Origin: Candidatus Electrothrix aestuarii
GTDB taxonomy: Bacteria > Desulfobacterota > Desulfobulbia > Desulfobulbales > Desulfobulbaceae
DNA: 64,000 bases
Direction of reading: 5' to 3'
Assembly (NCBI GenBank): GCA_032595685.2
Contig: CP159373.1
Location: forward strand, 3,871,907-3,935,906
The position numbers were made by a program, and so were the translations under genes. The notes under the pieces were generated by a model. It did not search any database. It saw nothing but the letters and a program-made list of their open reading frames with translations, and was not told where the DNA came from. Shown here piece by piece: positions 27,655-47,268 of this stretch (position 1 is its first letter; the number at the start of each line of letters is the position of its first letter).

Positions 27655-27705
27655 ATATCTCGCCCAGAGGAGGGATATCTGTGACGATATAAAGAAACTG
27701 TTTTG

Positions 27706-27734
27706 CTGATACGCCGCAGGCTGCGGCGTATCAG
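27706..27734. terminator. Perfect 14-bp inverted repeat between cbiET and cbiL
   Basis: CTGATACGCCGCAG (27706-27719) is followed by one G and its exact complement CTGCGGCGTATCAG (27721-27734). As RNA it is a very stable hairpin with almost no loop. There is no T-tract, so it is more likely an RNA processing or attenuation site, or a cruciform or protein site, than a simple terminator. It starts about 50 nt after the cbiET stop and ends 15 nt before the cbiL ATG. Confidence 0.5.
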
Positions 27735-27748
27735 ACCCGGAGCGTTGC

Positions 27749-28510
27749 ATGAAACAAGGAAAATCGCAGGGACGGCTTTATCTGGTCGGTGTCGGACCTG
27801 GTGACCCGGAACTTATGACCTATAAGGCCGTGCGGGTCCTTGAGCAGACCAAGGTCTGGGTGGCACCCAAGGCAAAGGCTGATGGCGCCAGTGCTGCCTT
27901 GCAGATTGCCTCAGCTATGGTGGGGCTCGCAGACAAGGAGGTTCTGGAGGTCCGCTTTCCCATGAAGAAGATCCGCCTGGAGCAGGAGCATGACCCTGAG
28001 GTGCAGCAGGGCTGGCAGGAGGCTGCCCGGATTGTGCTGGAGCGCCTTGATCAAGGCGAGGATGTTGCCTTTCCCACCCTGGGAGATCCGGGCCTTTATT
28101 CCACCTCCTTTTACCTGCTCAACACCCTGCAGGAGCTTCGCCAGGAGCTGCCGGTGACGATTATCCCAGGCATCACCGCCATGTCCGCCTGCTCTGCCCA
28201 GGTTAATGCGCCTTTAGGACTGGGAGATGATGTGCTTTCTGTTGTACCAGCTGCCTTTGATGATGCCCGCCTGCGTGATATTCTCCAGAACTCTGATGCT
28301 GTGGTGCTGATGAAGGTTTTTCGCCGTTTACCTGCGGTGATTGAGGTGCTGGACGAGTTGGGCCTGACGGACAAAGCGGTGCTGCTGGAGCGTTGCGGCA
28401 TGGAAGGACAACACATCTATACTGATATACGCGAAGCAGCAGAGAAAGAGCTCCATTATTTCTCCACCCTGCTGGTTCGGAAAAAACAGATAAGTAAGGT
28501 CGCAGCATGA
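27749..28510 (+). CDS. cbiL: Precorrin-2/cobalt-factor II C20-methyltransferase
   Basis: 253 residues of the tetrapyrrole methylase family. N-terminal LYLVGVGPGDPELMTYKAVRVL is the GxGPGDP motif. FPTLGDPGLYSTSFYLL and VTIIPGITAMSACSAQVNAPLGLGDDVLSVVPA identify the C20 enzyme. It adds the C20 methyl group early in corrin synthesis, using S-adenosylmethionine. Its stop overlaps the start of cbiF by ATGA, so the two are co-translated. Confidence 0.92.
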   Translation: MKQGKSQGRLYLVGVGPGDPELMTYKAVRVLEQTKVWVAPKAKADGASAALQIASAMVGLADKEVLEVRFPMKKIRLEQEHDPEVQQGWQEAARIVLERLDQGEDVAFPTLGDPGLYSTSFYLLNTLQELRQELPVTIIPGITAMSACSAQVNAPLGLGDDVLSVVPAAFDDARLRDILQNSDAVVLMKVFRRLPAVIEVLDELGLTDKAVLLERCGMEGQHIYTDIREAAEKELHYFSTLLVRKKQISKVAA

Positions 28511-29289
28511 ACACAGCGAGTAACACAACGAACATCCCTGTTGTCTTTCTCGGGGCCGGACCTGGCGATCCTGAGCTCATCACTGTTAAGGGACGGCGTC
28601 TGCTGGATGAAGCCGATGTTATCGTTTATGCTGGTAGCTTAGTGAATCCGGCCCTGCTGGATGGCGTGCAGGCAGAGATCCATAATTCTGCCTCCATGAC
28701 CCTGGATGAAGTGCTGGCTGTGCTCACCGATGCTTGGCGTACAGGCAGGAAGGCAATCCGCCTCCACACCGGTGATCCTGCTATTTACGGAGCAATCCGG
28801 GAGCAGATGCAGCGGCTGGATGCACAGGATATTCCCTATGAGGTGGTACCTGGAGTGAGCTCAGCACTCGCTGCCTCTGCGGCTCTACAGGTAGAACTCA
28901 CTGTGCCCGAGGTCACCCAGACCGTGATCTTTACCCGGCAGGCTGGTCGGACCTCAGTCCCTGAGCAGGAGTCCCTGCGCAATCTGGCTGCAATCCAGGC
29001 CTCCATGTGTATCTTTCTCTCTGTCTCTATGATAGATAAGGTGGTGGCGGAGCTTATGGCAGGAGGGTATCCTGAAGACACCCCTATCGCGGTGGTGGAA
29101 AAGGCCTCCTGGCCGGATCAGCAGATTGTTCGGGGCACCTTGGCTGATATTGCCGAGAAGATCAAGGCCTCTGCCATCCGCAAGACCGCCATGATCGTGG
29201 TGGGCCGGGCCCTATCCGATGATCCGACGGCTGCTTCCAAGCTCTATGATGCGGGTTTTAGTCATGAGTATCGGAGGAGCAGTACGTAG
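28507..29289 (+). CDS. cbiF: Precorrin-4/cobalt-precorrin-4 C11-methyltransferase
   Basis: 260 residues. VVFLGAGPGDPELITVKGRRLLDEADVIVYAGSLVNPALL and the HTGDPAIYGAIREQM loop are diagnostic of CbiF/CobM. TRQAGRTSVPEQESLRNLAAIQASMCIFLSV is also conserved. It methylates C11 of cobalt-precorrin-4. The ATG overlaps the cbiL stop. Other corrin genes are not in the window, so the pathway is split across loci. Confidence 0.94.
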   Translation: MNTASNTTNIPVVFLGAGPGDPELITVKGRRLLDEADVIVYAGSLVNPALLDGVQAEIHNSASMTLDEVLAVLTDAWRTGRKAIRLHTGDPAIYGAIREQMQRLDAQDIPYEVVPGVSSALAASAALQVELTVPEVTQTVIFTRQAGRTSVPEQESLRNLAAIQASMCIFLSVSMIDKVVAELMAGGYPEDTPIAVVEKASWPDQQIVRGTLADIAEKIKASAIRKTAMIVVGRALSDDPTAASKLYDAGFSHEYRRSST

Positions 29290-29354
29290 TGTTTTTTTTT
29301 GATCGCTGATTCACTTTTTCAAACAGAGAGTCTGTTTCTTCGATGTATTTTCGA

Positions 29355-29879
29355 TCAGGCAATGTCGTTCCAGGGTAACTCCCGAATATCAGCAATCTTT
29401 CTCCCTGGTGTTGGTGCTTTCATATACTCTGGAATACCTGCTATATCTTCGTCTTCCACATCTTCATCATTCCAGTACGCCCAGTGCCATTTGGGATCGT
29501 ATTGTATTTTTGCGCTTGGAAAACTCATAGATTTTATACGCTGTTCTATGGAAAGATGCAGTGATATCTTCCGTCGTTCCCAGTCATCGTATGCATCTGC
29601 TATTTTTTTCCCAGCTGAGTCTACGGGTTGGTTTAACCAGTAAATTGATAGAGCTGTGCCCGCATCACACAAGGGGCTTTCTAATATCCAATCAATTGTT
29701 TTCTCTGCGAGTTCATCGTCCCAGTTTATTAACCACGGCAAATAATAAAGTTCTTCTGGAGATGTCATTTTTTCCAATAGGGAAAAGAGCTGTTCTTCAG
29801 ATAAATCCATATTTACTAAATCATCTGTGAATGTATTTAATCGCCGCAATTGCTCTTGAGTTAATTCACTGACCGACAT
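29355..29879 (-). CDS. DUF4274-like protein
   Basis: 174 residues, soluble, acidic, rich in Trp. ELYYLPWLINWDDELAEKTIDWILESPLCDAGTALSIYWLNQP matches the core of DUF4274-type proteins (a W-N-W-D-D segment, then P-x-C-D-x-G-T-A-L). Function is unknown; family members are often found with polymorphic toxin immunity genes. It is transcribed alone, converging on cbiF. An RBS-like GGAG lies upstream of the ATG. Confidence 0.55.
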   Translation of the reverse strand: MSVSELTQEQLRRLNTFTDDLVNMDLSEEQLFSLLEKMTSPEELYYLPWLINWDDELAEKTIDWILESPLCDAGTALSIYWLNQPVDSAGKKIADAYDDWERRKISLHLSIEQRIKSMSFPSAKIQYDPKWHWAYWNDEDVEDEDIAGIPEYMKAPTPGRKIADIRELPWNDIA

Positions 29880-30032
29880 GATTGTTATTCTCCTTCAGTT
29901 TTTAATTATGTAGAACTGCCTGTTTTTTTTAGATAAAGCACTGGAATGGTAAAAGGTTGAGCAGGCTAGTAAAGAGTGTGACCCGTCCTGAATATAGTTG
30001 ACACATTAATGACCATTCAGGAGGGGAATAAT

Positions 30033-30431
30033 ATGAAAAAAGAACCTGTCAAACGTTACAGCCAGGCACTTAAACAACAGGTTGTCAGAGAGTACGAAGA
30101 GGGCGTCAGCATCTACAGCTTGCGTCAGAAATATGGCATTGGCGCTCACGGCACCGTAGAGCGATGGATTAAGAAGTTTGGCCGTTCCGGTTACCGCGCC
30201 GAGGTTGTGCATATCCAAACGGTTGAAGATCAGCTTGAATTTAAAGCAATGAAAAGCCGGATCAAGGAGCTGGAATCGGCATTGGCACAAAGCGTCCTTG
30301 AAAACCGGATGCTGGAAACCACGATAGAAGTAGCCGATCAATCATTGGGCACTGATATTAAAAAAATTTCGGGAGGAAATTATAACCAGGGCAGCAGCTG
30401 TAAGGCAGATCAGCAGGCAGGCGGCCTGTAA
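30033..30431 (+). CDS. IS3-family transposase OrfA
   Basis: 132 residues from the ATG at 30033, which has AGGAGG 8 nt upstream. The N-terminal helix-turn-helix reads KRYSQALKQQVVREYEEGVSIYSLRQKYGIGAHGTVERWIKKFG, followed by a leucine-zipper-like helix. It binds the IS ends. An A7 tract at 30360-30366 near its 3' end is the likely frameshift site for making an OrfAB fusion. OrfB overlaps its end in another frame. Confidence 0.85.
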   Translation: MKKEPVKRYSQALKQQVVREYEEGVSIYSLRQKYGIGAHGTVERWIKKFGRSGYRAEVVHIQTVEDQLEFKAMKSRIKELESALAQSVLENRMLETTIEVADQSLGTDIKKISGGNYNQGSSCKADQQAGGL

Positions 30432-31110
30432 CTGGTACGGTATCAGTCGGCAGGCATATTACCAGGCATTGCAGCGACAGATGCTCCAGGCAGCCGAAAA
30501 CCAACTCATCGTGGAACTGGTCAGGGCCATCCGCCAGCGTCACCCACGTATGGGCGGACGAAAACTGCATTACGAACTACAGGATTCGATGGCCGCCTTG
30601 GGAATTTCCAGGGGCAGAGACGCATTTTTCAAGCTGTTATCAGCACATAACCTGCTGGTCCCAACCAGACTCAGCCATCGCAAAACCACACATGCTGGCC
30701 TGTGGCGATGCCCCAATCTGTTGATTGATTTAACCATTACCCACGTCCATCAGGCCTGGGTTGGTGACATCACCTATATCACGACCGAGACGGGATTTGT
30801 TTATCTGGCTTTACTGACCGATGTTTTTTCTCGCTTTATTGTCGGCTTCGATCTCTCGTCGTCGCTTGCGGTCGAAGGGTGTGACCGGGCGCTGAAACAG
30901 GCGATAGCACAGGCTGACGGTGCTGATTTGCGTGGCCTGATCCATCATTCGGATCATGGGGTGCAATACACCGCCTGGCTGTACCGGGAGCGATTGCAAA
31001 AGATGGAGATACGTTCCAGCATGGGAGAAGTGGGCAACTGTTACGAAAACGCCTTAGCTGAACGAGTGAATGGAATCTTAAAAGGCGAATATGGCCTTGA
31101 CGACCTTTTC
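30379..31110 (+). pseudogene. IS3-family transposase OrfB, 5' part (interrupted)
   Basis: 244 codons of the integrase-like subunit. HPRMGGRKLHYEL precedes the DDE catalytic core: WVGDITYI (first Asp), IHHSDHGVQYTA (second Asp) and NCYENALAERVNGILKGEY (Glu). The frame is cut after LDDLF at 31110 by IS91 copy 2 and resumes at 32447. The start is uncertain: an ATT with a GGGAGG box at 30379, or fusion from OrfA. Confidence 0.85.
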
Positions 31111-32446
31111 ATTGTTGTATAGGAAATTATAAAATTTTCCTTTCAACATGTTGTAATTGCGAATAGAGTATTAGCTTAATGAAAAATAAGCTGATAAAAT
31201 TAATCTTTCGTGATTTTTGGTATGTAGTCTGCGTTGAATTGGCAAGCAGGTACTCAAGCCTTCACTGGGAGTCAATCGTTGAAAATGTAGAAAAAATGAT
31301 CAACTGTGGAGAGTCTACCAATGGCTATGTCGAGTATATTTGTCCGAATTGTTTTGAAAAAAGAGAGTAGGGTTCACCTGTAAGTGTCGATTCTGTACGT
31401 CTTGCGGTAAGCGATACGTCGATGAATGGGTTGAAAAGACAGTGAAAAGTATATTCGACGTAGTTCATCGACATTTAGTGTTTACCATTCCACAAGAACT
31501 CCGAAAGATAATTTTTAGTGATCGTATGCTGATCAAGATTATGATGGATTGTGCTTCAAAAGCGGCTGTGGAAGTACTTCAAAGTAAAGGAGTTGATGCT
31601 GTTCCGGGAATTCTATTAGTTGTCCATACGTTTGGAAGAGATCTTAAGTTTAATCCGCATGTCCATATGTTAATGACAGAAGGAGGATTAACATCTTCCA
31701 ATCAGTGGGTTGATATTCCATTTTTGCCATATGGTCTGCTTAGAAAAAATGGCAATATTATTTGCTGACTGAAATAAAGGCTAGCTTGCCGCAAACAAAA
31801 GAAAATGTAAGATTCATAGATTACCTGTTTAAAAGCCAACGTAATGGTTTTTATGTAAATGGTAAAAGCAAGATGACATCAGCAAGACATGCAGCTCGAT
31901 ATATTGGTCGCTATATGGCTCGTCCAGCATTGGCAGAGCACAAGATAACGAATTACGATGGTGAGGAAGTAACATTTTGGTATATTGATCATAAAACAGA
32001 AGTTAAAGTTACCGAAGCGATTCCAGCCAAAGAGTTCATACAACGATTAATTGACCATATCCCGCTAAAGGGATTCAAGATGGTCCGCCATTATGGGTTA
32101 TATTCTCGACGTACAAAAACAATCGCGATAGAGATTTTGATGGACTGTAAACGTTTTATCCAGAAGACTTTTGAATTCATGAAAAGTGATTCAAGGTCAT
32201 TGAGCTGGAGAGAGCGTCTAGTACAGAGTTTCGGGAAAGATCCGTTAACATGTCCAAACTGTAAAGAAAAAATGTTTTTATGGCGGATTTGGCATCCTGA
32301 CTATGGAGATATCTTTGATCTGAGCAGAGACGGACCTTTTGTGGAAAGCAAGAGTAAACAAGAATGCAACAAGAGAAACTCTTCGGGTCGGCAGGTTAAG
32401 TGGATACCGCAATTGCTTCCGTTTTAATCCGCCCGTAGGGCGTTTT
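31111..32446 (+). mobile_element. IS91-family insertion sequence, copy 2, nested in the IS3 orfB
   Basis: Same element as at 3911-5244. The insertion site can be reconstructed exactly: removing 31111-32446 joins GACCTTTTC to GTTCATAAG and restores the orfB reading frame (D-L-F-V-H-K). No bases were lost or duplicated, and GTTC (32447-32450) abuts the right end. This fixes the element at 1336 nt with left end ATTGTTGTATAGG and right end GGGCGTTTT. Confidence 0.9.
31179..32427 (+). pseudogene. IS91-family HUH transposase, copy 2, two -1 frameshifts
   Basis: Translated segments are the same as in copy 1: zinc-binding N-terminus to 31370, then HUH motif HVHMLMTEGG, then a break at the A6 tract near 31744-31749, then the YIGRY segment to 32427. 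Both A6 sites are as in copy 1, so copies 1 and 2 are probably closer to each other than to copy 3. Confidence 0.8.
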
Positions 32447-32575
32447 GTTCATAAGGAACATGCTCAGAAAGCTGTCCGGGAAGCTGTATGGCTATACAAT
32501 TATGAACGGCCTCACCTGGCACTCAACTATGGAAAGCCTGCAGAGATTTATTTTGAGAAAATTGATGTGAAGTAG
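32447..32575 (+). pseudogene. IS3-family transposase OrfB, 3' part
   Basis: 43 codons continuing the interrupted orfB in frame: VHKEHAQKAVREAVWLYNYERPHLALNYG, the conserved C-terminal end of IS3 transposases (YNYERPH). The stop is 12 nt before the right inverted repeat. Confidence 0.85.
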
Positions 32576-32640
32576 TTACTATTTTGGTGTCAACATATTT
32601 CAGGACTTGACAGTGGTTAGCATAACCACTACCTACTTCT

Positions 32641-32708
32641 CCCCCTGCAACAAGCTGTTCCGCAATGGAACCCTTCACCACTAGGCGATAAACCGTGACC
32701 GGGCGCTC
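32641..32708 (-). pseudogene. Fragment of a SNF2-family helicase 3' end
   Basis: 58 nt (32651-32708) match 39207-39264 of the intact SNF2 gene at 52 positions. Just before it CCCCTGCAACAAGC matches the very end of that gene (around 39103-39117). About 93 nt between these two parts are deleted in the fragment. Read on the minus strand it gives RPVTVYRLVVKGSIAEQLV. It is a decayed duplicate in the same orientation as the full gene 6.5 kb to the right. Confidence 0.75.
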
Positions 32709-32749
32709 TTTTTGGAGCCATCAACCCTAAAAAATAGCATGACTGAATA

Positions 32750-32860
32750 CTAGTACACTGCGGCGTAAGTTTCACGCTGCTTTTTAAAGCGAAATTCTTT
32801 GCAAAGAGCGGAAAGGCGGCTCTTAAAAAGAATAGGATAATTTACGCCGGAGTGTACTAG
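32750..32860. repeat. MITE-like element 1
   Basis: 111 nt bounded by inverted repeats CTAGTACACTGCGGCGTAA (left) and TTACGCCGGAGTGTACTAG (right), with one mismatch. The interior is non-coding and partly self-complementary. Size and ends fit a miniature inverted-repeat transposable element; the CTAG termini could include a TA duplication as for IS630/Tc1 types. Confidence 0.65.
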
Positions 32861-32928
32861 GAAGATCCTATGAATTTTGATTTGCACAACATAACTACAA
32901 GGTGTAACGATTAGTATAAAGATACAAT

Positions 32929-33058
32929 TACCAACTTAAGGTGGAACAGCCTGCAAAATTAAGCAATTGCAAAGACCGTCGCGAGGCTATTCCTCACGGG
33001 GCTTTTGCCGAGTTTGGAAACTTCAGAGCCCGAACTTTTGTCCCAGCTTAAGTTGGTA
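32929..33058. repeat. MITE-like element 2
   Basis: 130 nt bounded by perfect 12-bp inverted repeats TACCAACTTAAG and CTTAAGTTGGTA. The match extends inwards to about 20 nt (TACCAACTTAAGsTGGrACA) with two mismatches. It is non-coding. It lies 68 nt from MITE-like element 1 and ends just before egtD. Confidence 0.6.
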
Positions 33059-33115
33059 GCGCAAAAGTTTATATCTGTAGTTTCTATGAGAAAGCAGCGG
33101 CAGCTGCTATTCTGA

Positions 33116-34117
33116 TCAGGCAGGGCTGAAGAGGTTGAGGCTAAACCATTTTCTGGTATCAAACCAGCGGGATTTTAGACGCAGACCGGATCGATCCGCT
33201 ATTGTTGCAATTTTTTCCTCTGAATATTTACAGGATACTTCTACATGGATGCGTTCGTTTTCTTTGAAGGAAACCTCCATATCCAGATCCCGAATAGATA
33301 CCTGCTGATCCTTACAGCTGGTAATATACGATTCCATCCGGGATTCAGCTTTATTGCAGACCGGTTCGTGCCGAAATTGGGCAAGGTTGAAATCTGCGTC
33401 CAAAGAGTTGTTTATCCTCCTAAGAAGGTTCATATTGAATGCCGCCGTAATACCTTGAGCGTCATTATATGCGGCATCTATGATTTTCCAGTCCTTGATC
33501 ATATCCATACCAATAAGCAGACTGTCTTTCGGCTGCATCATCCTGCTGATCTTTGAAAGAAAATCGATTGCGTTGTTATCAGTCAGGTTGCCAATGCTCG
33601 ATCCTAGCCACAGGATGCACTTCGGAACATCTGTTTTTTGCAGAAAGTGTATGCCATCCTCATACCTACCTCCGATTGCCGTAATCTGAAGGTTTGGATA
33701 CTGTTCAATCAGCCTGCGCATACTTTGAGCCATATATTGTATGGAAATATCTATGGGCGTGTATTGCACCCTGTTCTGCCGTTGAAAAAGTGCCTCGAAA
33801 AAAAGTTTGATTTTGACAGGATTTCCGTTGCCTAATTCCGTGATAATGGCTTCTTCTGGAATCTCGGCGATAATATTTCCCATGTTGTCTTCAAGAACTG
33901 CAAGCTCTGTCCTTGTGAGGTAATATTCAGGCAACTCACAAATCTTATCAAACAGCAGGGAACCTTCATAATTATAGAAACAGCCGCTACACAACGACTT
34001 ATGAAGAGATGAGAATCCTTTCTTTACCTGTTTTTTTAGATCGTCATGGGGTGCGAATTCTTCCAAGCTGAAAAAATTAAGTTGGTCCTCTTTGAGATAT
34101 TCCTTCATATTCTTCAT
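33116..34117 (-). CDS. egtD: L-histidine N-alpha-methyltransferase
   Basis: 333 residues, the EgtD (Methyltransf_33) length. Features are YNYEGSLLFDKICELPEYYLTRTE, the SAM-binding ELGNGNPVKIKLFFEAL, YTPIDIS, and LWLGSSIGNLT. EgtD trimethylates the alpha-amino group of histidine to hercynine, the first step of ergothioneine synthesis. The neighbouring divergent gene encodes the predicted sulfur-inserting enzyme. No EgtB-like iron oxygenase is present, which agrees with an anaerobic route. The ATG and its leader lie 118 nt from the divergent gene, so a shared regulatory region is likely. Confidence 0.9.
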   Translation of the reverse strand: MKNMKEYLKEDQLNFFSLEEFAPHDDLKKQVKKGFSSLHKSLCSGCFYNYEGSLLFDKICELPEYYLTRTELAVLEDNMGNIIAEIPEEAIITELGNGNPVKIKLFFEALFQRQNRVQYTPIDISIQYMAQSMRRLIEQYPNLQITAIGGRYEDGIHFLQKTDVPKCILWLGSSIGNLTDNNAIDFLSKISRMMQPKDSLLIGMDMIKDWKIIDAAYNDAQGITAAFNMNLLRRINNSLDADFNLAQFRHEPVCNKAESRMESYITSCKDQQVSIRDLDMEVSFKENERIHVEVSCKYSEEKIATIADRSGLRLKSRWFDTRKWFSLNLFSPA

Positions 34118-34235
34118 AGTTGTCGCGACCTCCTTGATACGTTATAGTTGTTTTTTTATAGAAAATATACGAAACAAGCACGAAGAGCTTTGTTTGTCAA
34201 GTGATTGATAAAAATAAGGTGAAAGGGAGCATTTC

Positions 34236-37200
34236 TTGGAAGAGCAACAGGTTGAGTATCGAAAAGGCATCTGCGGCATCTGTCCTGCGGGATGCTGGGT
34301 GAAAGTCGGACGGCAGAACGGCAAAATCGTCAGCATGCAGGCGGATGAATCCCATCCTCTGGGCATGATCTGCAAAAAAGGAGAGCATGCTGCCGAGATT
34401 GTCTACTCGGAACATCGGCTGAAATACCCTCTACGCCGGACCGGACCTAAGGGTACATATAACTTTGAGCGTATCTCCTGGGATGAAGCCTATTCTCATA
34501 TTGTTGAGCAGCTCCAGCGGATCAAGGAAGAATCAGGGCCGGAAGCTGTCTCAATCTATACCGGACGCGGTGCCTTTGAACTGTCGCTTTGCGACATGTA
34601 CCAGCCCAGGGATATAGCAGTTTCCTCGGCATCAAATATCCTCTTCCCCTTTGGCTCACCCAATACCATGGGCGTGGGCGCGCTCTGTTATGTGTCCTTT
34701 GCCATGATCGCGCCGCATGTCACCATGGGCCGCATGCTCATCAACATGTTTACCGATCTGGAGCATGCCGAGATGATTGTTGTCTGGGGGGCAAACCCGG
34801 CAACTGATTCGCCGCCCCTGGATATGTTCCGGCTTGAAGCGGCAGCAAAGCGCGGAGCCGATATTGTGGTGATTGATCCGCGTCGGACAGAAACTGTTCT
34901 GCGCACAGGTGCCCGCTGGATACCCATTCGTCCGGGAACTGACGGGGCACTGGCTCTGGGGATTATTGAGGTGCTGATTGAGGAGGAGCTGCTGAACGAA
35001 GATTTTGTGCAGCACTGGTGTCACGGTTTTGATGAACTCAGAACCTATGTTCAGCATTTTCCGCCGGAGAGGGTTGCGGAGATCACCGGGGTGCCTGCCG
35101 ATACAGTCCGGGAACTTGCCCGCAACATTGTCCAGGCCGCAGGATGTGCTCCGGTGATGTACACCGGACTTGAATACTCGAACAGCGGCATCCAGGCGAT
35201 CCGCGCCGTGCTGACTGCCTGGGCCCTAGCAGGGCAGCTGGATGTTCCCGGCGGCATAGGGCTGGCTATGCTCAACAGCCACTTCCCGATCAACCGTTCC
35301 TGTAACCAAGCGAATCCGAACCTTGACCGTGCGGTTGCGAGGGATACCTTCCCCCTGTACAGCAGGTACCGAGGAGAATCCCATGCTATCGGACTGGTGG
35401 ACTCTGTGCTCAAAGGAGACCCCTATCGCATTCGCGGGCTGCTCATTGACGGCGGGTCCATCCTTACCTCCTGGCCGCAGACACCGCTTTGGCGAGAAAC
35501 CCTATCCAAACTGGACTTCCTGGTCTGTATTGACCGGCAGCTTACCGCAGATGCGGCCTATGCGGATATCGTTCTGCCGGCAACCACTATGTTCGAGATA
35601 GACTCCTACATGGTTTACGGCCCGATCTTCCGCCTGCGGGAAAAACTGATTGAGCCGGTCGGAGAAGCAAGAAACGACTACCTGATTATGGCTGAGCTTG
35701 CGGAACGGCTGGGATACGGGGAACTTTTCCCGCAGTCCGAAGAGGCCATGATCCGTTTCGCCCTGCAGGGATCGGGTTTTACCCTGGAGGAGATCCGGGC
35801 AGCCGGAGGAATTGCGCAGTTACCTGCACCGGCCATGGAGTACCGAAAATGGGAAAAAGGCAGCCTGCGGTCGGACGGCAGGCCGGGTTTTGATACGCCC
35901 ACCTGCAAATTCGAGATACACTCCTCATTGCTGTCCGAATACGGCTATGAGCCGCTCCCGAAATATACCGAACCCAGGGAAGGGCCTCTGGCTGCGCCGG
36001 ACCTTGCCCGTTCCTTTCCCCTGGTTTTCAACTCCGGCGCAAGAACCCATACAGACTTCCGTTCGCAGCATCACGGTATTCCCGGACTCCTGAAGGACAA
36101 TCCCGAACCCTGTGTGGAACTCAACAGGGCTGATGCGGAGGACCGGGAAATCCGAACCGGCGACCTTGTTGAAGTGAGCACCCTTCGCGGCAGTGTGCAG
36201 TTTCGTGCTGTAGTGAGCGAGGATATTGTGCAGGGAGCTGTTGAGGCCAATATGGGAGGCGGTACTCCGGTCGGTCCTGCGGCCTGGCAGCAGGCAAATG
36301 TCAATGAGCTGACAGATCTTTCCAACTATGACGAAATCTCCGGTTTTCCCGTGTACAAGGCCCTGCTCTGCGAAGTTGTCAGAATTGAGCAGGGAACATC
36401 GGCAAGTCGGAAGAGTGCGGAGAAAAAACTACATACGGGCAGTTCCGCCCCTCAGCAGGAACGGTCTGAATCCAGGCGGATTTATCTTGACAACAACGCA
36501 ACCACAGACCTTGCCCCTTCAGTGCATGAGGCCATGCAGCCCTTTCTGGAACGCAGTCACGGCAATCCGTCCAGTATTTACCGGGCTGGCCGTACTGCTC
36601 GAGATGCTATGGAAAAGGCCCGACGACAGCTGGCAGGACTGCTCCATACCAAACCCAAACGTATTATCTTTACAGGCGGCGGGTCCGAGGCTGATAATCT
36701 GGCCCTGAAAGGAGCGGCATTTGCCTGTCAGGACCAGGGCAGACATATCATCACCTCGGCTGTGGAGCACCCGGCAGTGCTGGAGACGTGCAGATTTTTA
36801 GAACGTTGCGGCTTCCGCGTCACGTTTCTTCCTGTAGATGCTTTCGGCATGCTTGACCCTGAACAACTGAGAAGGGCTATCACAGATGAGACTTTCCTTG
36901 TCTCTGTCATGATGGCGAATAACGAGGTGGGAACGATTCTGCCGATCAGGGAGCTGGCTGTAATTGCCCATCAGCGCAATGTTCTTTTCCATACAGATGC
37001 GGTTCAGGCAATCGGCAAAATACCCGTGAACGCGGAAGAGCTTGATGTTGATCTGCTCAGTCTGTCAGGGCATAAATTTCACGGTCCCAAGGGAGTGGGT
37101 GCGCTGTATGTGAAAAAGGGGGTTCGGCTGGAACCGCTGATTCACGGAGGAAAACAGGAAAGCGGGCTTCGAGCAGGAACAGAAAATGTTGCCGCCCTTG

Positions 37201-37631
37201 TCGGTCTCGGAAAGGCAGCGGAACTGGCTGCATACGGGCTGCAGGATTCTGAAAAAATGTGCGCGCTCAGAGACCGTCTCGAAGCGGGCATCAAAAAAAT
37301 TGTCCCGGATGCGCAGCTGAACGGGCATCCAGAGCTCAGGCTTCCCAATACCTTAAACATGACCTTTCCCGGAATTCGGGGGGAATCACTTGTTATTGCT
37401 CTGGACCAGCACGGGATCTCCATTTCGTCAGGATCGGCCTGCAAGACTGGTTCGCCAGAACCCACGCATGTACTGACCGCTATGGGAAAAAGCGCGGAAG
37501 AAGCACATTGCTCGCTCCGCTTTTCGCTGTCGCAACAGACCGGTGAGGAGGAAATTGATGCCGTTCTTGAGGAACTTTCTCAGGTTCTTGAAGAAATGAA
37601 AAATACGATCCGCTTTCTTTCCTGTAAATAA
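34236..37631 (+). CDS. Metallopterin-dependent ergothioneine synthase (molybdopterin oxidoreductase-cysteine desulfurase fusion)
   Basis: 1131 residues. Residues 1-720 are a DMSO-reductase-family subunit: a 4Fe-4S binding GICGICPAGC...MICKKGEH at the start, VVWGANPATDSPP and VIDPRRTET pterin motifs, and a C-terminal dinucleotide domain (VFNSGARTHTDFRSQHHGIPG, VEANMGGG). After a Ser/Lys-rich linker, residues about 748-1131 are a complete NifS-type cysteine desulfurase: IYLDNNATT, PLP lysine in SLSGHKFHGPKG, catalytic Cys in SSGSACKTG. The same fusion was described as metallopterin-dependent ergothioneine synthase (MES) of Caldithrix abyssi, which sulfurises hercynine without oxygen. Adjacent egtD supports this. 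The start is a TTG with GGGAG upstream. Confidence 0.85.
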   Translation: MEEQQVEYRKGICGICPAGCWVKVGRQNGKIVSMQADESHPLGMICKKGEHAAEIVYSEHRLKYPLRRTGPKGTYNFERISWDEAYSHIVEQLQRIKEESGPEAVSIYTGRGAFELSLCDMYQPRDIAVSSASNILFPFGSPNTMGVGALCYVSFAMIAPHVTMGRMLINMFTDLEHAEMIVVWGANPATDSPPLDMFRLEAAAKRGADIVVIDPRRTETVLRTGARWIPIRPGTDGALALGIIEVLIEEELLNEDFVQHWCHGFDELRTYVQHFPPERVAEITGVPADTVRELARNIVQAAGCAPVMYTGLEYSNSGIQAIRAVLTAWALAGQLDVPGGIGLAMLNSHFPINRSCNQANPNLDRAVARDTFPLYSRYRGESHAIGLVDSVLKGDPYRIRGLLIDGGSILTSWPQTPLWRETLSKLDFLVCIDRQLTADAAYADIVLPATTMFEIDSYMVYGPIFRLREKLIEPVGEARNDYLIMAELAERLGYGELFPQSEEAMIRFALQGSGFTLEEIRAAGGIAQLPAPAMEYRKWEKGSLRSDGRPGFDTPTCKFEIHSSLLSEYGYEPLPKYTEPREGPLAAPDLARSFPLVFNSGARTHTDFRSQHHGIPGLLKDNPEPCVELNRADAEDREIRTGDLVEVSTLRGSVQFRAVVSEDIVQGAVEANMGGGTPVGPAAWQQANVNELTDLSNYDEISGFPVYKALLCEVVRIEQGTSASRKSAEKKLHTGSSAPQQERSESRRIYLDNNATTDLAPSVHEAMQPFLERSHGNPSSIYRAGRTARDAMEKARRQLAGLLHTKPKRIIFTGGGSEADNLALKGAAFACQDQGRHIITSAVEHPAVLETCRFLERCGFRVTFLPVDAFGMLDPEQLRRAITDETFLVSVMMANNEVGTILPIRELAVIAHQRNVLFHTDAVQAIGKIPVNAEELDVDLLSLSGHKFHGPKGVGALYVKKGVRLEPLIHGGKQESGLRAGTENVAALVGLGKAAELAAYGLQDSEKMCALRDRLEAGIKKIVPDAQLNGHPELRLPNTLNMTFPGIRGESLVIALDQHGISISSGSACKTGSPEPTHVLTAMGKSAEEAHCSLRFSLSQQTGEEEIDAVLEELSQVLEEMKNTIRFLSCK

Positions 37632-37644
37632 AAAGAGTGACGCT

Positions 37645-39078
37645 ATGCCTAGTCTTGTAAACAATACAGATACCCTTGGAACAGGAACGCTCAGGCTCCT
37701 TGATTGCACACGATCCAGGCGACAGCTTACCTTTCGCTTCGGACTGGATGATCTGCATTTTTCCACCTCTCTCTGGTACGGTGACGTTGATTTTTACGCC
37801 CTTGAAACCCGTTTCGGCAGAGAGTTCATGCGAAAGCTCTATTTTCATATTATGGCCTTTGAGGCCAACAAGCTGATCAGCCTGCAACCGAGGTACTTTG
37901 ATACGGGGTCTTTCAGCGACCTCCAGACTGAGGCCTTTGTCCGACTCTGGAAGACGATCTATCAGCATGTCTGGGCCCAGTGGCGCTATGAAAATGCCCT
38001 GCCCGATTATGCAGGGCCTGTTCCTGTCCAGCCTATTGCTGAACATTCACCGGCAGCTGTAGAGGGCAGTCCCGGATCAATTTCGCTACTCGCCTTCTGC
38101 GGGGGCGGCAAAGACAGTCTGGTTTCTCTACGTCTGCTTGAACGGGCTGAGATTCCGTATGCCAGCTATGCTTATTCGCATTCCATTTACGGTACAGCAC
38201 CTCGGCAACATGCACTGATTGATCAGCTTCTGAACCATCTGCACCCTGAACAACGGCACAGGCACTGGGTCTACGACGACTTTATGGATGCACCCGTCCT
38301 TGACCTGCACCCTGAACTGGGGGTCAGTACCCTTACCGCTGCGGAGACCCCGAGTTCTGTTTTCGGGGTGTTGCCGCTTATCCTACAGCATGGATATCAA
38401 TATATCGGGCTTGCTCATGAACGCAGTGCGGATACAGGGAATCTGATCTGGGAACAGACCGGTGAGGAGGTCAATCATCAGTGGGGCAAGTCCTATGAAG
38501 CGGAACAGCTGATCAATGCATATATCCGATCCGAGCTGATCAAGAACGTCAGTTACTTCAGCCTGCTCAAGCCGATACACGATGTTCTGATATTTACTTT
38601 ATTGCAGGACGATGTGGAGGTGGTCGCTGCAACGCATTCCTGTAATGTCGAAAAACCTTGGTGTAAACGTTGTCCAAAATGTGCGTATGTCTGGCTGAAT
38701 TATATGGCTTATCTTCCCACGCAGAAAGTTGAGCGTATTTTTCAGTGCAATCTTTTTGATCTGCCGGAAAACCAACTGGCTTTCCGGCAGATGCTGGGAT
38801 TGGAGGCGCATACTCCCTTTGAATGTATAGGCCAGACGGATGAGGCCAAGCTGGCCTTTGAGCTGTGCCGTCGTAAAGGGCTTGAGGGAGCGGCCATGCA
38901 GACCTTTATAAACGAATGCGAGCCTCTTGACTGGAAAAAGGTGCTGGATAAATACCTTGCGGTATATGATGAGGAGTCGGCGATTCCGGCGGTGCTGTCA
39001 GTAAAATTATTGACTGTCCTGCATGCAAAAAGCCGAGAGGCAAAGCGGGAACTTGCCATTGTACTAGAGCCGAAATAG
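37645..39078 (+). CDS. PP-loop ATPase-like protein in the ergothioneine cluster
   Basis: 477 residues, soluble. FCGGGKDSLVSLRLLERAEIPYASYAYS around residue 152 is a PP-loop (SGGxDS-type) ATP-binding motif followed by a Rossmann strand. GLAHERSADTGNLIWEQTGEEVNHQWGKSYEAE and a Cys cluster C-N-V-E-K-P-W-C-K-R-C-P-K-C follow. PP-loop enzymes adenylate substrates (amide formation, sulfur transfer, tRNA editing). The closest known layout is the MurL-type epimerase family, which has a similar GGGKDS motif, so that is an alternative. It starts 13 nt after the MES stop and is probably co-transcribed. A role in processing or conjugating ergothioneine is a guess. Confidence 0.6.
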   Translation: MPSLVNNTDTLGTGTLRLLDCTRSRRQLTFRFGLDDLHFSTSLWYGDVDFYALETRFGREFMRKLYFHIMAFEANKLISLQPRYFDTGSFSDLQTEAFVRLWKTIYQHVWAQWRYENALPDYAGPVPVQPIAEHSPAAVEGSPGSISLLAFCGGGKDSLVSLRLLERAEIPYASYAYSHSIYGTAPRQHALIDQLLNHLHPEQRHRHWVYDDFMDAPVLDLHPELGVSTLTAAETPSSVFGVLPLILQHGYQYIGLAHERSADTGNLIWEQTGEEVNHQWGKSYEAEQLINAYIRSELIKNVSYFSLLKPIHDVLIFTLLQDDVEVVAATHSCNVEKPWCKRCPKCAYVWLNYMAYLPTQKVERIFQCNLFDLPENQLAFRQMLGLEAHTPFECIGQTDEAKLAFELCRRKGLEGAAMQTFINECEPLDWKKVLDKYLAVYDEESAIPAVLSVKLLTVLHAKSREAKRELAIVLEPK

Positions 39079-39093
39079 CTGGGGGCAGAGCCG

Positions 39094-43485: not shown

Positions 43486-46400
43486 TTACTCAGCGGTTAT
43501 TTGATGGAGCTCAACTCTTCGATTCATGGCCCGGCCTTCCGCAGTGTTGTTGTCTGCAATGGGGTTTTCCTGGCCGTACCCTTTACTGACAAGGAGTGCT
43601 CCGTCTATACCTTGCTCGACCAGAAATTTGCGTACAGATTGTGCCCGTTGCTCAGATATCTGCTGATTCCTTTTCGGGCTGCCCACGCTGTCAGTATACC
43701 CGGCTACTTCAAAGCGTTTTCCAGCAGCATGCGTTTTCAGTAGCTTTGCTGTTTTTTTTAGACTGCTTACGGCCTCATCCGTCAGCTTGGCAGTACCTGT
43801 TGTAAAATTCACACCGGAAAGAATGATGGTGGCGTCCACGTTGCCATCATTATCGCTATCCAGGCTTGCAGAGTCTTCGGCTTCTTGTTGGGCAGGAGAT
43901 TCGACAGTTTCTTCTTCTGTATCTTCTGCATTAATTGCCTCTGCTTGTTCTTCCTGTTCAACAGGAGCTACCTGCTCTTGTTCTGCAGGATTCTCTGTTG
44001 CTGCATCTGCTTCTTCGGCAGGAGCTTCCTCTTCCTGTACTTCCTCTTCTTGTTCGTTCTGTTGCTGTACAGTTTCCTGCTCTGCTTCAGCAGGAGCAGC
44101 AACCTGCGCTGCCATAGTTTCCTGCGCAACCTCTTGCGCAGGCTCTGCATTGCTCTGCTGGCTCAGCTGTTCCTTGAGGCGGATTATTTCTTCTTCCAGC
44201 TCTTTTACCCGTGCCTGCAAGGCGCTGAGTTCCTCTTTTGCATTTGCCAGCTCGGCCTGAGATTCTTCTGCGCTTTTCTTGATTGCATCAGTCTGGTCAG
44301 CTGTTGCAGCCTGTGCAGCCAAAGTTGTCTGCGCTTGGGCCAGAGCCTCAGTTTGGGCGGTCAGTGCCTGATCTTTTTCTTCCAGGCTCGCTTTCAGGGT
44401 GTTCAGCTCTTCCTCAAGAGCTGTTGCCTTGCTGCCAGCTTCTTCCTGGGTTTTGGCCAGCTCGGTCAGTTTTGCCTGAGCATCAGCAAGCTCTGTTGCC
44501 AGCTTTTCTTTTTCCTCCCCAGCCGCACTGAGTTCAGTAATCTGGGCCTTGGCTTGATCCAGCTCAGCTGTCAAGGCTGCTATTTTTTCTTCGGTTTCTG
44601 TAGACTGCTGTTCAACTGCCTGGAGCTCGGTCAGCTTTGCTTCCAGAGCAGCTGTTTTCTTCTGCTCTGTTGCCAGTTGTTCTGCCAGAGTGCCTGCTTC
44701 AGCTAACTGCTTCTCCAGCTCAGCAATCTTTTCCTGGGCCTCAGTAATTTTGGCAGTTTCTTGCTGGAGTTCTGTAACCTGTGCCTCCAGAGTCGCGGCT
44801 TTCTCCTGAGCAGCAACAAGTTCAGCAGCCTGTGTTTCTGTCTGAGTAAGTTGAGCCTCCAGGCTTGCGACTTTTTCCTGCACTGCGTTGAATTCTTCAA
44901 CCGTAGTGGGTAACTCGGAGAGCTGTGTTTCCAAAGAGGTTATTTTTTCCTGATTCGTAGCCAGCTGTGCCTGCAAGCCTTCCATATTGGCCAACTCGGC
45001 CTCCAGAGTTGCAACCTGCTCCTGCGCAGACTGGAGCTGCTCCTGTAAGGGCAGGAGGTCAGCAACCTGTGCTTCCAAAGCGCTGATTTTTTCTTGAGCA
45101 GCCGTCTGACTTGCTTCCTTATCAGCCAGCTGTGTTTCCAGATTTGTAACCTTTTCCTGGGCAGAGGCAACAGAGTTTTTTGCCTCCTCTACAGCGGTTG
45201 TTGCAGCACTCAGCTCTTCAGTCTTTACTTCTACTTGCTGGCTAAGCTCAGTTTCTTTTGCTTTTGCTGCTTCAAGTTCAGCAGTGAGGCGCTCCCGCTC
45301 TTGGGTTAACTCCTGCGTCCTGGACTTTTGGTCCTCAAGCTCAGTGGTTAAACGCTCAATTTCTGCCCGGACAACAGTCAGCTCTTCATCCTTACCAGCA
45401 AGACTTTGCTGTAAGGCCTGTTCTTTTTCCTGGGAGGTTGCGTAATTTGTCTCAGCAGTCTCCAGAGCTGCCTTGGTTTCAGTAAGTTCGCCTGTCAGTT
45501 GCTCAATAGAGGCCTTTGCCTCAGCAAGTTCCTGGTTTAACTTTTCTGTTTCCTTATTACGAACAAGGGTGGATTCTGTCAGGCTGGCAACCTGATTGAC
45601 TAATTCCTTGCCACTGGCCGTGCGTTCTGCCAGTTCTTTTTGTGCAGTTGCAAGCTCTTGCTGTTTTTCTTCCAGCTGTTTTTGCAACGCTGTAATCTCT
45701 TCCTGGGAAGGGGCGAGGAGGCGTTCTTTTTCTTTGCCGTACTTGAGCAAGGCCTCGATTTTGAGTTTGGATCTTTTCTCTGTTGCATGGAGGGCTGTTA
45801 TTTGGGAGGCTGCTTCGAGCAGAAGCTCTTTTTGCTGCGCCAATTCCTTTTCTTTGGCAGTGAGCTGCTCTGTCAGCTGTCCGATATTGCTATGCAGAGC
45901 CAGTTTCTCTTTTTCCAGTTCAGCCTGATGCAGGGTCTTTTGTGCTTTCAGCAGTTCAGAGAGTTCGTCTACTTTGCCGGTAAGGCTTTCCTTTTCTGCG
46001 GCCAGTTTTTCCAGCTGAGCCTGCGCTTCAGTGAATAGGGCCTGCTGGGCCTCTTTTTCTTGAACAAGCTGAGAAAACTCTTCTACTTTGCCAGCAAGGC
46101 TTTCCTTTTCTGCGGCCAGTTTTTCCAGCTGAGCCTGCGCTTCAGTGAGTCGAGCTTGCTGTGCTTCTTTTTCCTGAACAACCAGGGAAAGTTCATCCAG
46201 TTTTTCAGTAAGTGTTTTCTTCTCAGCGCTCAACGTTTCCAGCTGTGTTCGTGCTTCAGCCAAGGCAGCCTCTTGATCATCATAGGCGATCTGCTTTTCT
46301 CGCTGTTCACGACCAGCCTTTTGCAATTGTTCTTTCAGGGTTGCAAGTTCCTGCTGCTGAGCAGTTCCGGTCGCGCTTAAGGTGGTGACCTGCTCGGCAA

Positions 46401-47268
46401 GTTGCTGGTTATTCTTCTTGGCAGTTTCCAGCTCTTTTTTCGCTGTCTCAAGGGTGGCTGTCAGCTGTTCAATCTGCGTTTGCTGATCAATAAGCTGTTT
46501 TTCCAGGGTAGCTGCTTTTTGCTCAGAAGGAGCCAGCATACGGTCTTTTTCTTTTCCGTACTGGAGCATGGCCTCAGCTTTAAGCTGGGCCTTTTGTGCG
46601 GCGTTGCTCGCAAGAGAAAGTCTGGTGGTGGCCTCCGTCAGCTGGGCCTTAGACTGCTCCAGGCGGCCAGAGAGCTCTGCAACGAGTTGCTCTGTTTCTT
46701 TGATGTGATCAGCTTTCTCCTGCTGCGCTTCTTCAAGTTGGGAAATTTGTTGTAGGTCGGCCCGGCGTCGTTCCTGTATCTGAACGAGCAATGTTTTTTG
46801 GTTTTGCAGTTCCTGCTCAGTCTCTTTGAGTTTTTGCAGGAGTTGTTTGCTGGCGCTGTTTTCTTTTCCAACTTTCTCGCTTAATTTTTTATTGGCATTT
46901 TCCAGCTGTTCTTGCAGCTGCTGAATGCGGGCTTCAGCTTTTTGTAATTGTTCAGCAGAAACTCTGCTCTTCTCTCCAGAGGGAGCTGCTTTTGGTGCGA
47001 CCTCGGCAACGGCTTTTTTCTCTTGTTTTATTTTATTTAATTTAGAAAGGAGTCGCTTCTCTTCGGCCTTGGCATCAACGAGGTCTTGCTTGTATTCAGT
47101 AACCTGGCTTTGTAGCGTGTGAATTTTTTCCTGAGTCTGGGCCGTAGCCGCCTGCTCTTCATGTTTTTTTTTGCTCTGAGCATGATACCCTGCAAGAGCA
47201 ATATAGAGCAGGATACCGAGCGAGATATAAAGCGCTAAGCGCGGTGTTACTTTTTGCATGAGTTTCAT
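43486..47268 (-). CDS. Inner-membrane-anchored coiled-coil protein with C-terminal OmpA domain
   Basis: 1260 residues. One membrane helix at the N-terminus (LALYISLGILLYIALAGYHA) anchors it. Residues about 35-1040 are nearly uninterrupted Glu/Gln/Ala/Leu coiled coil with internal duplications, for example two copies of AQLEKLAAEKESL and of LxYGKEKxRxLAPS. An acidic Gln/Glu/Ala linker follows, then SLDSDNDGNVDATI and an OmpA-like peptidoglycan-binding domain (FEVAGYTDSVGSPKRNQQISEQRAQSVRKFL, GYGQENPIADNNT, NRRVEL) at the end. A helix this long could span the periplasm to bind peptidoglycan. A structural or envelope-tethering role is inferred. glgB lies just upstream on the same strand. Confidence 0.85.
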   Translation of the reverse strand: MKLMQKVTPRLALYISLGILLYIALAGYHAQSKKKHEEQAATAQTQEKIHTLQSQVTEYKQDLVDAKAEEKRLLSKLNKIKQEKKAVAEVAPKAAPSGEKSRVSAEQLQKAEARIQQLQEQLENANKKLSEKVGKENSASKQLLQKLKETEQELQNQKTLLVQIQERRRADLQQISQLEEAQQEKADHIKETEQLVAELSGRLEQSKAQLTEATTRLSLASNAAQKAQLKAEAMLQYGKEKDRMLAPSEQKAATLEKQLIDQQTQIEQLTATLETAKKELETAKKNNQQLAEQVTTLSATGTAQQQELATLKEQLQKAGREQREKQIAYDDQEAALAEARTQLETLSAEKKTLTEKLDELSLVVQEKEAQQARLTEAQAQLEKLAAEKESLAGKVEEFSQLVQEKEAQQALFTEAQAQLEKLAAEKESLTGKVDELSELLKAQKTLHQAELEKEKLALHSNIGQLTEQLTAKEKELAQQKELLLEAASQITALHATEKRSKLKIEALLKYGKEKERLLAPSQEEITALQKQLEEKQQELATAQKELAERTASGKELVNQVASLTESTLVRNKETEKLNQELAEAKASIEQLTGELTETKAALETAETNYATSQEKEQALQQSLAGKDEELTVVRAEIERLTTELEDQKSRTQELTQERERLTAELEAAKAKETELSQQVEVKTEELSAATTAVEEAKNSVASAQEKVTNLETQLADKEASQTAAQEKISALEAQVADLLPLQEQLQSAQEQVATLEAELANMEGLQAQLATNQEKITSLETQLSELPTTVEEFNAVQEKVASLEAQLTQTETQAAELVAAQEKAATLEAQVTELQQETAKITEAQEKIAELEKQLAEAGTLAEQLATEQKKTAALEAKLTELQAVEQQSTETEEKIAALTAELDQAKAQITELSAAGEEKEKLATELADAQAKLTELAKTQEEAGSKATALEEELNTLKASLEEKDQALTAQTEALAQAQTTLAAQAATADQTDAIKKSAEESQAELANAKEELSALQARVKELEEEIIRLKEQLSQQSNAEPAQEVAQETMAAQVAAPAEAEQETVQQQNEQEEEVQEEEAPAEEADAATENPAEQEQVAPVEQEEQAEAINAEDTEEETVESPAQQEAEDSASLDSDNDGNVDATIILSGVNFTTGTAKLTDEAVSSLKKTAKLLKTHAAGKRFEVAGYTDSVGSPKRNQQISEQRAQSVRKFLVEQGIDGALLVSKGYGQENPIADNNTAEGRAMNRRVELHQITAE

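Follow-up and report, generated by a model that had tools for sequence, protein, structure and literature searches.

An egtD–MES gene pair with a probable role in oxygen-independent ergothioneine synthesis in Candidatus Electrothrix aestuarii

The window analysed here is a 64,000-nucleotide stretch of the Candidatus (Ca.) Electrothrix aestuarii genome (contig CP159373.1, positions 3,871,907 to 3,935,906), and it holds a gene for the methyltransferase EgtD that is divergent from a gene for a 1131-aa fusion protein, identified below as a relative of the metallopterin-dependent ergothioneine synthase (MES) of Caldithrix abyssi. A third gene, encoding a MurL-like PP-loop protein, lies behind MES and is probably co-transcribed with it. 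A sequence-only reading of this DNA had proposed that the locus serves ergothioneine synthesis independently of oxygen, and the genes, their relatives and their genomic contexts were examined with that proposal in view.

Genes at the locus

The features are listed with their window positions.

33116 to 34117, minus strand: egtD, histidine N-alpha-trimethyltransferase, 333 aa, TIGR03438 equivalog
34118 to 34235, no strand: divergent intergenic region, 118 bp, with Shine-Dalgarno-like AGGAGG (egtD) and AGGGAG (MES)
34236 to 37631, plus strand: MES, 1131 aa, a 4Fe-4S/molybdopterin module joined to a NifS-type desulfurase
34236 to 36392, plus strand: MES N-terminal module (residues 1-719), with 4Fe-4S cysteines C13, C16, C20 and C46 and metal-ligand C151
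36468 to 37628, plus strand: MES C-terminal NifS/IscS-type cysteine desulfurase, with K947 (pyridoxal phosphate, PLP), C1069 (persulfide), C1092 and penultimate C1130
37645 to 39078, plus strand: MurL-like PP-loop protein, 477 aa, 13 bp 3' of MES, its stop codon closing the span under study

The egtD reading frame opens with ATG downstream of AGGAGG and that of MES with TTG downstream of AGGGAG; the G+C content at third codon positions is 0.473 for EgtD versus 0.581 for MES. EgtD scores 320.9 bits against TIGR03438 (cut-off 290.9) and is the sole PF10017 match in the host genome, so that the 333-aa EgtD divergent from an 1131-aa fusion, as first read from the sequence, is borne out by score and coordinates alike.

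Architecture and residues of the fusion protein

Four Pfam domains follow one another along the fusion protein: Molybdop_Fe4S4 (residues 9-58), Molybdopterin (61-491), Molydop_binding (602-709) and Aminotran_5 (749-1110). The C-terminal part scores 522.3 bits with TIGR03402 (NifS), just below the cut-off of 530.75, and the best NCBIfam names for the N-terminal module (N-module), Fdh-alpha and PhsA, both lie far below cut-off. The solved structures nearest to the protein by sequence are cysteine desulfurases (E 3.5e-108), and, desulfurases aside, the N-module is nearest to acetylene hydratase 2e7z (E 1.1e-68); both of these protein kinds are named in the Caldithrix study (PMC9516567). A structure model of the protein reached a predicted local distance difference test score (pLDDT) of 82 and a predicted template modelling score of 0.70, with low confidence for the last five residues.

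For the Caldithrix enzyme (CaMES) the residues named are Cys14/17/21/48, Cys153, Lys952, Cys1074, Cys1097 and Cys1135, with domains extending to residue 1136 (PMC9516567). Our comparison ran through L136, a 1136-aa homologue whose source record carries the label Caldithrix abyssi HyVt-577 and whose residue numbers are identical to those published. By this alignment C13, C16, C20, C46 and C151 of the window protein correspond to CaMES C14, C17, C21, C48 and C153, and K947, C1069, C1092 and C1130 to K952, C1074, C1097 and C1135. All nine residues are kept, including the essential penultimate cysteine. Coordinates, Pfam domains and residues thus agree with the sequence-only description of a DMSO-reductase-family/NifS fusion complete with 4Fe-4S motif, PLP lysine and catalytic cysteine, and domain order together with the nine matching positions upholds its comparison with the Caldithrix architecture.

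The same positions were followed across relatives in other genomes. Rows were obtained for 103 of 107 loci (the ORF picker lost the MES open reading frame (ORF) in L069, L096, L106 and L113, so genes can be missed) and, with the window, came to 104; removal of 18 rows of 1000 aa or less (12 unfused, six cut or split) left 86. Conservation at the nine CaMES positions ranges from 80 to all 86 rows: the C153 position is Cys in all 86, K952 is Lys in 85 with one X, C1074 is Cys in 84 with one Ala and one gap, and the penultimate C1135 is Cys in 82 with four gaps, never being substituted. The most often substituted position is C1097, with Cys in 80 rows, Ser in two, Arg and Gly in one each, and gaps in two. 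In the published work, mutation of Lys952, Cys1074, Cys1135 or Cys153 abolished production (2000-fold less or almost none), and mutation of Cys1097 merely halved activity (PMC9516567). Conservation therefore follows the published mutagenesis, the mildly affected position being the most variable and the essential ones near-invariant. One copy, L091 of genome G416, has Ala at the persulfide cysteine and X at the PLP lysine.

EgtD and its arrangement with MES

Active-site residues for comparison of EgtD, Met252 excepted, were taken from PMC8593015, and all were mapped by alignment, with the chain numbering shifted by one to fit. Nine of the 11 residues compared are identical in the window protein (Y48, F56, Y65, D123, N177, Y217, T224, E293 and S295, equivalent to Tyr39, Phe47, Tyr56, Asp113, Asn166, Tyr206, Thr213, Glu282 and Ser284 in the reference numbering), and two are substituted, with S174 for Thr163 and S263 for Met252. 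Asn166, Tyr206 and Glu282 are invariant over 68 EgtD rows. The divergent order of egtD and MES is shared with G499, a genome of the window's genus, and with Ca. Electronema sp. KV; in all 13 other loci from the phylum the two genes are co-directional.

Distribution and co-occurrence

Among 73 genomes of the window's family, MES is present at 1e-150 or better in four, and PF10017 is matched over cut-off in the same four, on which ground a chance neighbourhood of egtD is rejected; two further family genomes have sub-cut-off PF10017 matches. The phylum sample comprised 395 genomes, in which relatives were counted at 1e-200 (weaker ones not being listed), and yielded 26 matches, 14 of them full fusions (window included) and 12 with the N-module only. 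The window's genome, which the sequence-only reading had placed in a probable Desulfobacterota, is one of 14 sampled from the phylum that have the fusion, and so not the sole case. The fusions of the 13 other genomes share 56-62% identity with the window protein, one of them with an internal stop, and EgtD adjoins the fusion in all 13 but in none of the 12 unfused loci (tblastn at 1e-8 within the stretches read, some of them short or at contig ends).

Out of 371 relatives from a scan of named genomes we retained the best 80, so that counts on these 80 are biased towards close relatives. Desulfurase sequence lies behind the N-module in all 80 loci, some of which are cut by contig ends. EgtD falls within the examined stretch in 32, and for 40 of the remaining 48 it was found over cut-off elsewhere in the genome (as two pieces in G419 and as a fragment in G434). 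We had considered whether MES loci without a nearby EgtD mark a different pathway; this was set aside because the whole-genome search found EgtD in 40 of the 48, mostly unlinked or cut off. Clustering of ORFs from 106 loci gave no general extra partner of MES, with nothing beyond EgtD in more than eight loci. Apart from MES, the host genome contains one further NifS-like match (50%) and, at 27-31% identity, six more matches to the N-module; these other molybdopterin-enzyme matches make the cofactor plausible.

Some loci have further neighbours of possible relevance. In Ca. Electronema sp. KV a hisG ORF (L063, 6778-7662) starts 9 bp 3' of MES, counted from its first possible start. In the anammox loci L131, L137 and L138 (L131 and L138 being one metagenome-assembled genome, MAG) and in L094 from Phycisphaerae, the gene run that contains EgtD also encodes an ABC ATPase and a binding-protein/permease fusion of 505-506 aa, and MES lies within this run or adjoins it. 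Two of these fusions, from L137 and L094, were searched, and both have EgtUC, an ergothioneine transporter, as their best solved-structure match (3.6e-37 and 1e-33); ProX relatives are close behind, and NCBIfam gives just sub-cut-off betaine/choline names. Their domains are arranged in another order than in EgtU (PMC9732360), and "EgtU-like" is used here as a label for these linked, putative transporters, not as proof of function.

Phylogeny of MES and EgtD

In the N-module tree the window protein falls among fused enzymes that include the 1136-aa L136 protein. Over two trees it groups with G499 and Ca. Electronema at a support of 100, and then with Bdellovibrionales proteins (94 and 92, unstarred). 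The EgtD of the window forms a group with that of Ca. Electronema (100), whose neighbours are the EgtD proteins of anammox planctomycetes and one Fermentibacteria MAG (86, in a quick tree), and it stands apart from EgtD of the other phylum loci (31-37% identity). In view of these groupings and of the differing third-position G+C content, EgtD and MES may have different histories, although the EgtD branches are long and weakly resolved.

An unfused sister branch

In the N-module tree, six of the 12 unfused proteins (G389, G036, G033, G132, G252 and G208) come together in a single clade (support 100), with the fused MES as its sister group (84, unstarred). The corresponding loci are as follows.

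L048 (8686 to 11861), L049, L050, L051, L052 and L055: loci of the sister branch

In all six the unfused ORF starts 9-26 bp after an ORF for a methyltransferase of 313-318 aa, whose best NCBIfam match is in every case the OvoA C-terminal domain TIGR04345, at 88.7-113.2 bits and below the cut-off of 170; no other NCBIfam methyltransferase exceeds 36 bits. One of the methyltransferases was searched against solved structures, and those nearest to it are OvsM (1.1e-20), OvoA (3.9e-18) and OvoM (9.6e-16); OvsM, OvoA-C and OvoM are N-methyltransferases of 5-thio/selenohistidine. A profile built from the six found no further member in the 1298 ORFs of 106 loci, and so none beside fused MES, and none near the other six unfused proteins within the stretches read, one of which spans just 4.4 kb. 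All 12 unfused proteins retain the metal-ligand cysteine and the four FeS cysteines. The gene pairing suggests a candidate oxygen-independent route to thiohistidine elsewhere in the phylum. We found no report of oxygen-independent ovothiol synthesis in the open-licence literature searched, which included PMC12631010 and PMC10903977.

The MurL-like gene

The protein encoded behind MES scores 129.9 bits with the MurL model NF041275, far below the cut-off of 700, and has the motifs GGGKDS and CxxCxKC, which it shares with two better matches to that model. The host genome encodes a second MurL-like protein (L183, 766-2187) that is closer to the model (197.1 bits) and only 23% identical to the MES-linked one. 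The gene is rare: it occurs in two of the 73 family genomes, beside MES in both, in one of the 395 phylum genomes, the window's own, and, at 1e-15, in three of 80 MES genomes, namely the window's, a Thiotrichaceae genome (56%) and a remote match of 32%, leaving 77, Ca. Electronema sp. KV among them, without a match at that threshold. In the Thiotrichaceae genome the gene adjoins EgtD, the match having one in-frame stop near its start, and all close homologues found lie beside MES or EgtD. Four plasmid records contain remote relatives of 27-29% identity.

No PDB chain matches the MurL-like protein by sequence. Its structure model is poor (pLDDT 56), and a Foldseek search with it gave no match at E 0.001 or better; the PP-loop enzymes Cap9, NcsA, TtuA and QatC came back with match probabilities of 0.94-1.00, a weak indication from a poor model. 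In the MurL reaction AMP is formed from ATP, and a carboxylate is believed to be adenylated (PMC5808125, PMC8788868). Linkage of the gene in two lineages leads us to guess that its product might modify hercynine or ergothioneine.

Host and genomic island

The host genome is a single contig of 5.11 Mb, 96.6% complete, and the host is probably a cable bacterium of the genus Ca. Electrothrix, that is, a centimetre-long filament that conducts electricity. The sequence-only assignment to a probable Desulfobacterota was right and can be sharpened to Desulfobulbaceae and, probably, to this genus. MES is found in two of eight genomes of the genus (window included), with an intact copy of 98% identity in G499, and in Ca. 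Electronema sp. KV, the best named match (85%). G493, from the window's family, has an MES of 83% identity, and between the two cable genera the proteins are 83% identical with all nine residues kept. No report of MES in cable bacteria was found in the open-licence literature searched, which included PMC12093952, PMC13047784 and PMC11247825, and Table S1 of PMC9516567 may list Desulfobacterota, even cable bacteria. We also asked whether MES is connected with the nickel-dithiolene cofactor that cable bacteria have; no literature support for such a link was found, and with MES not found in six of the eight genus genomes, some of them incomplete, the enzyme is no general cable trait.

The locus lies in an island whose parts are listed here, the cbi and cob gene names being read by eye.

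27655 to 39093, no strand: segment without counterpart in congeners G498 and G495, with cobI, cobM, DUF4274, insertion sequence (IS) genes, egtD, MES and the murL-like gene, between cbiET and an SNF2-type gene
30009 to 32427, plus strand: IS3-type orfA/orfB, with a Y2 transposase divided between two ORFs (Pfam HTH_Tnp_1, rve, Y2_Tnp)

Between cbiET and SNF2 the island measures 11.4 kb. The ends of these two ORFs are less than 100 bp apart in G498, and in G495 a single 443-aa ORF stands between them, a difference among congeners that is compatible with gain or loss alike. G499 has the island as in the window except for the IS3/Y2 genes, which have no match in its stretch L184 (tblastn at 1e-10), so that the IS genes probably arrived later in the window. 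In Ca. Electronema the egtD/MES pair has the same divergent order and other neighbours.

Elsewhere in the window, positions 43486-47268 encode a 1260-aa protein with very long coiled-coil-like repeats and, by eye, an OmpA-type C-terminus; it is 96% identical over the 328 residues available from G499.

MES and oxygen

MES homologues have been stated to be exclusive to anaerobic species (PMC9516567). The host genome encodes a full-length CtaD-like oxidase subunit (634.3 bits, a little below the cut-off of 670.75), and aa3-type oxidase genes are reported in Ca. E. communis, laxa and scaldis (PMC10926707). We extended the search to 80 MES genomes, comprising the window's and 79 others (L138 sharing the genome of L131). 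CtaD exceeds the strict cut-off in 22 of them and reaches at least 544 bits, over the full or nearly full model length, in 38, although the lower-scoring matches could be other heme-copper oxidases. EgtB is found over cut-off in 11 of the 80. Seven of these (G397, G417, G420, G426, G438, G440 and G442) have EgtD no more than 1 kb from EgtB; the two genes are on separate contigs in G421, G425 has EgtD beside a second, sub-cut-off EgtB-like gene, G434 shows just fragments, and in G517 (L095) EgtD is beside MES.

From these gene contents MES looks not to be confined to anaerobes, and one EgtD may feed both oxygen-dependent and oxygen-independent sulfur routes. Contamination of MAGs could explain single cases of EgtB or oxidase genes, but hardly all of them, and an oxidase gene is no proof of aerobic life. 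The "anaerobic" label of the sequence-only reading needs amending, given the CtaD-like gene in the host.

Proposed pathway and alternatives

We consider it very probable that the locus serves oxygen-free ergothioneine synthesis by EgtD and MES. This analysis shows the architecture, the residues, the linkage, the genome-wide co-occurrence with EgtD and the grouping with fused relatives; the cofactor, sulfur path and product would be as in the Caldithrix enzyme. EgtD would convert histidine to hercynine (trimethylhistidine, TMH) in three methylations. The desulfurase half of MES would move sulfur from cysteine to a persulfide on C1069, which the C-terminal tail (C1130) would pass to a bis-molybdopterin guanine dinucleotide metal centre with C151 as its ligand; the metal-sulfido group formed there would sulfurise C2 of the TMH imidazole to give ergothioneine. 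Anoxic, sulfidic cells of the filament would in this way make a thione antioxidant that may be useful when the filament meets oxygen.

The Caldithrix system has the same domain order, nine residues and EgtD partner as the window, and likewise no EgtB over cut-off (PMC9516567); the window differs in its divergent egtD, in its MurL-like third gene and in a host that probably respires oxygen along the filament. The sulfoxide synthases EgtB and OvoA carry out the same step, placing sulfur on the histidine imidazole, but they depend on oxygen and iron and are unrelated, and EanB of Chlorobium is, like MES, an oxygen-independent enzyme of TMH sulfuration but is rhodanese-like and uses polysulfide (PMC9516567).

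In favour of the assignment, no EgtB over cut-off (TIGR03440) was found in the host, which extends the sequence-only remark that none lay nearby to the whole genome (best 67.9 bits versus 360). Several observations weigh against it. In the window EgtD a Ser replaces the active-site residue Met252, a position that is Ser in seven and Met in 57 of 68 EgtD rows. The N-module tree keeps the fused proteins together with a support of only 90, unstarred, and FastTree put two long-branch unfused proteins among the fused ones. Finally, eight of the 48 genomes without nearby EgtD (G398, G400, G402, G416, G418, G422, G432 and G439) have no EgtD over cut-off, G422 having a sub-cut-off match, and two of the eight, G416 (L091) and G418 (L093), are records titled chromosome.

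The alternative that deserves most attention is that the window protein is an MES relative that sulfurises another substrate, such as histidine, another betaine or a modified hercynine that the MurL-like protein makes or consumes, and so makes an ergothioneine derivative. The rare gene 13 bp behind MES, its recurrence beside EgtD in Thiotrichaceae, the adenylating chemistry thought to be that of MurL (PMC5808125, PMC8788868) and the serine that replaces Met252 would fit this idea, but EgtD keeps the equivalents of Glu282, Asn166, Tyr56, Tyr206 and Ser284, and 77 of the 80 MES genomes, Ca. Electronema KV included, do without a MurL-like match at 1e-15; we regard it as unlikely. Far less probable is a decaying, silent or recently acquired island that has no function. 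Its appeal lies in the patchy occurrence of MES (two of eight genus genomes, absent from two congeners) beside transposase genes, and it is hard to reconcile with nine kept residues, with an intact 98% copy in G499, whose locus is free of IS genes, and with 83% identity and kept residues across two cable genera.

We give least credence to the view that the fusion is a self-sulfurating molybdenum oxidoreductase of formate or thiosulfate type, whose desulfurase part would act in cofactor maturation, EgtD being a chance neighbour. Sulfuration of the molybdenum cofactor by desulfurases is common (PMC9516567), and Fdh-alpha and PhsA are the best NCBIfam names for the N-module, both far below cut-off; yet in 13 of 13 phylum loci the fusion has EgtD beside it, the two co-occur exactly in four of 73 family genomes, and the penultimate cysteine is present in all 82 of the 86 rows that have that position.

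Implications

Two genes believed to suffice for making the antioxidant ergothioneine without oxygen are present in a surprising host. What ergothioneine does away from oxygen is a question on which cable bacteria bear directly: one filament spans sulfide and oxygen, offering a natural test of whether the compound is made by anoxic cells and used by cathodic ones. More widely, the CtaD-like genes in 38 and EgtB in 11 of the 80 MES genomes suggest that oxygen-dependent and oxygen-independent routes are paired, several of them fed by one EgtD. A bolder proposal, to which we give somewhat less than an even chance, is that MES is one branch of a larger family of oxygen-independent thio-imidazole synthases, in which the unfused sister enzymes, with their OvsM/OvoA-C/OvoM-like methyltransferases, would make ovothiol or 5-thiohistidine without oxygen, and the MurL-like gene of cable bacteria would point to an undescribed ergothioneine derivative. 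Concrete new enzyme candidates come from the MurL-like gene as well as from the unfused, ovothiol-like branch.

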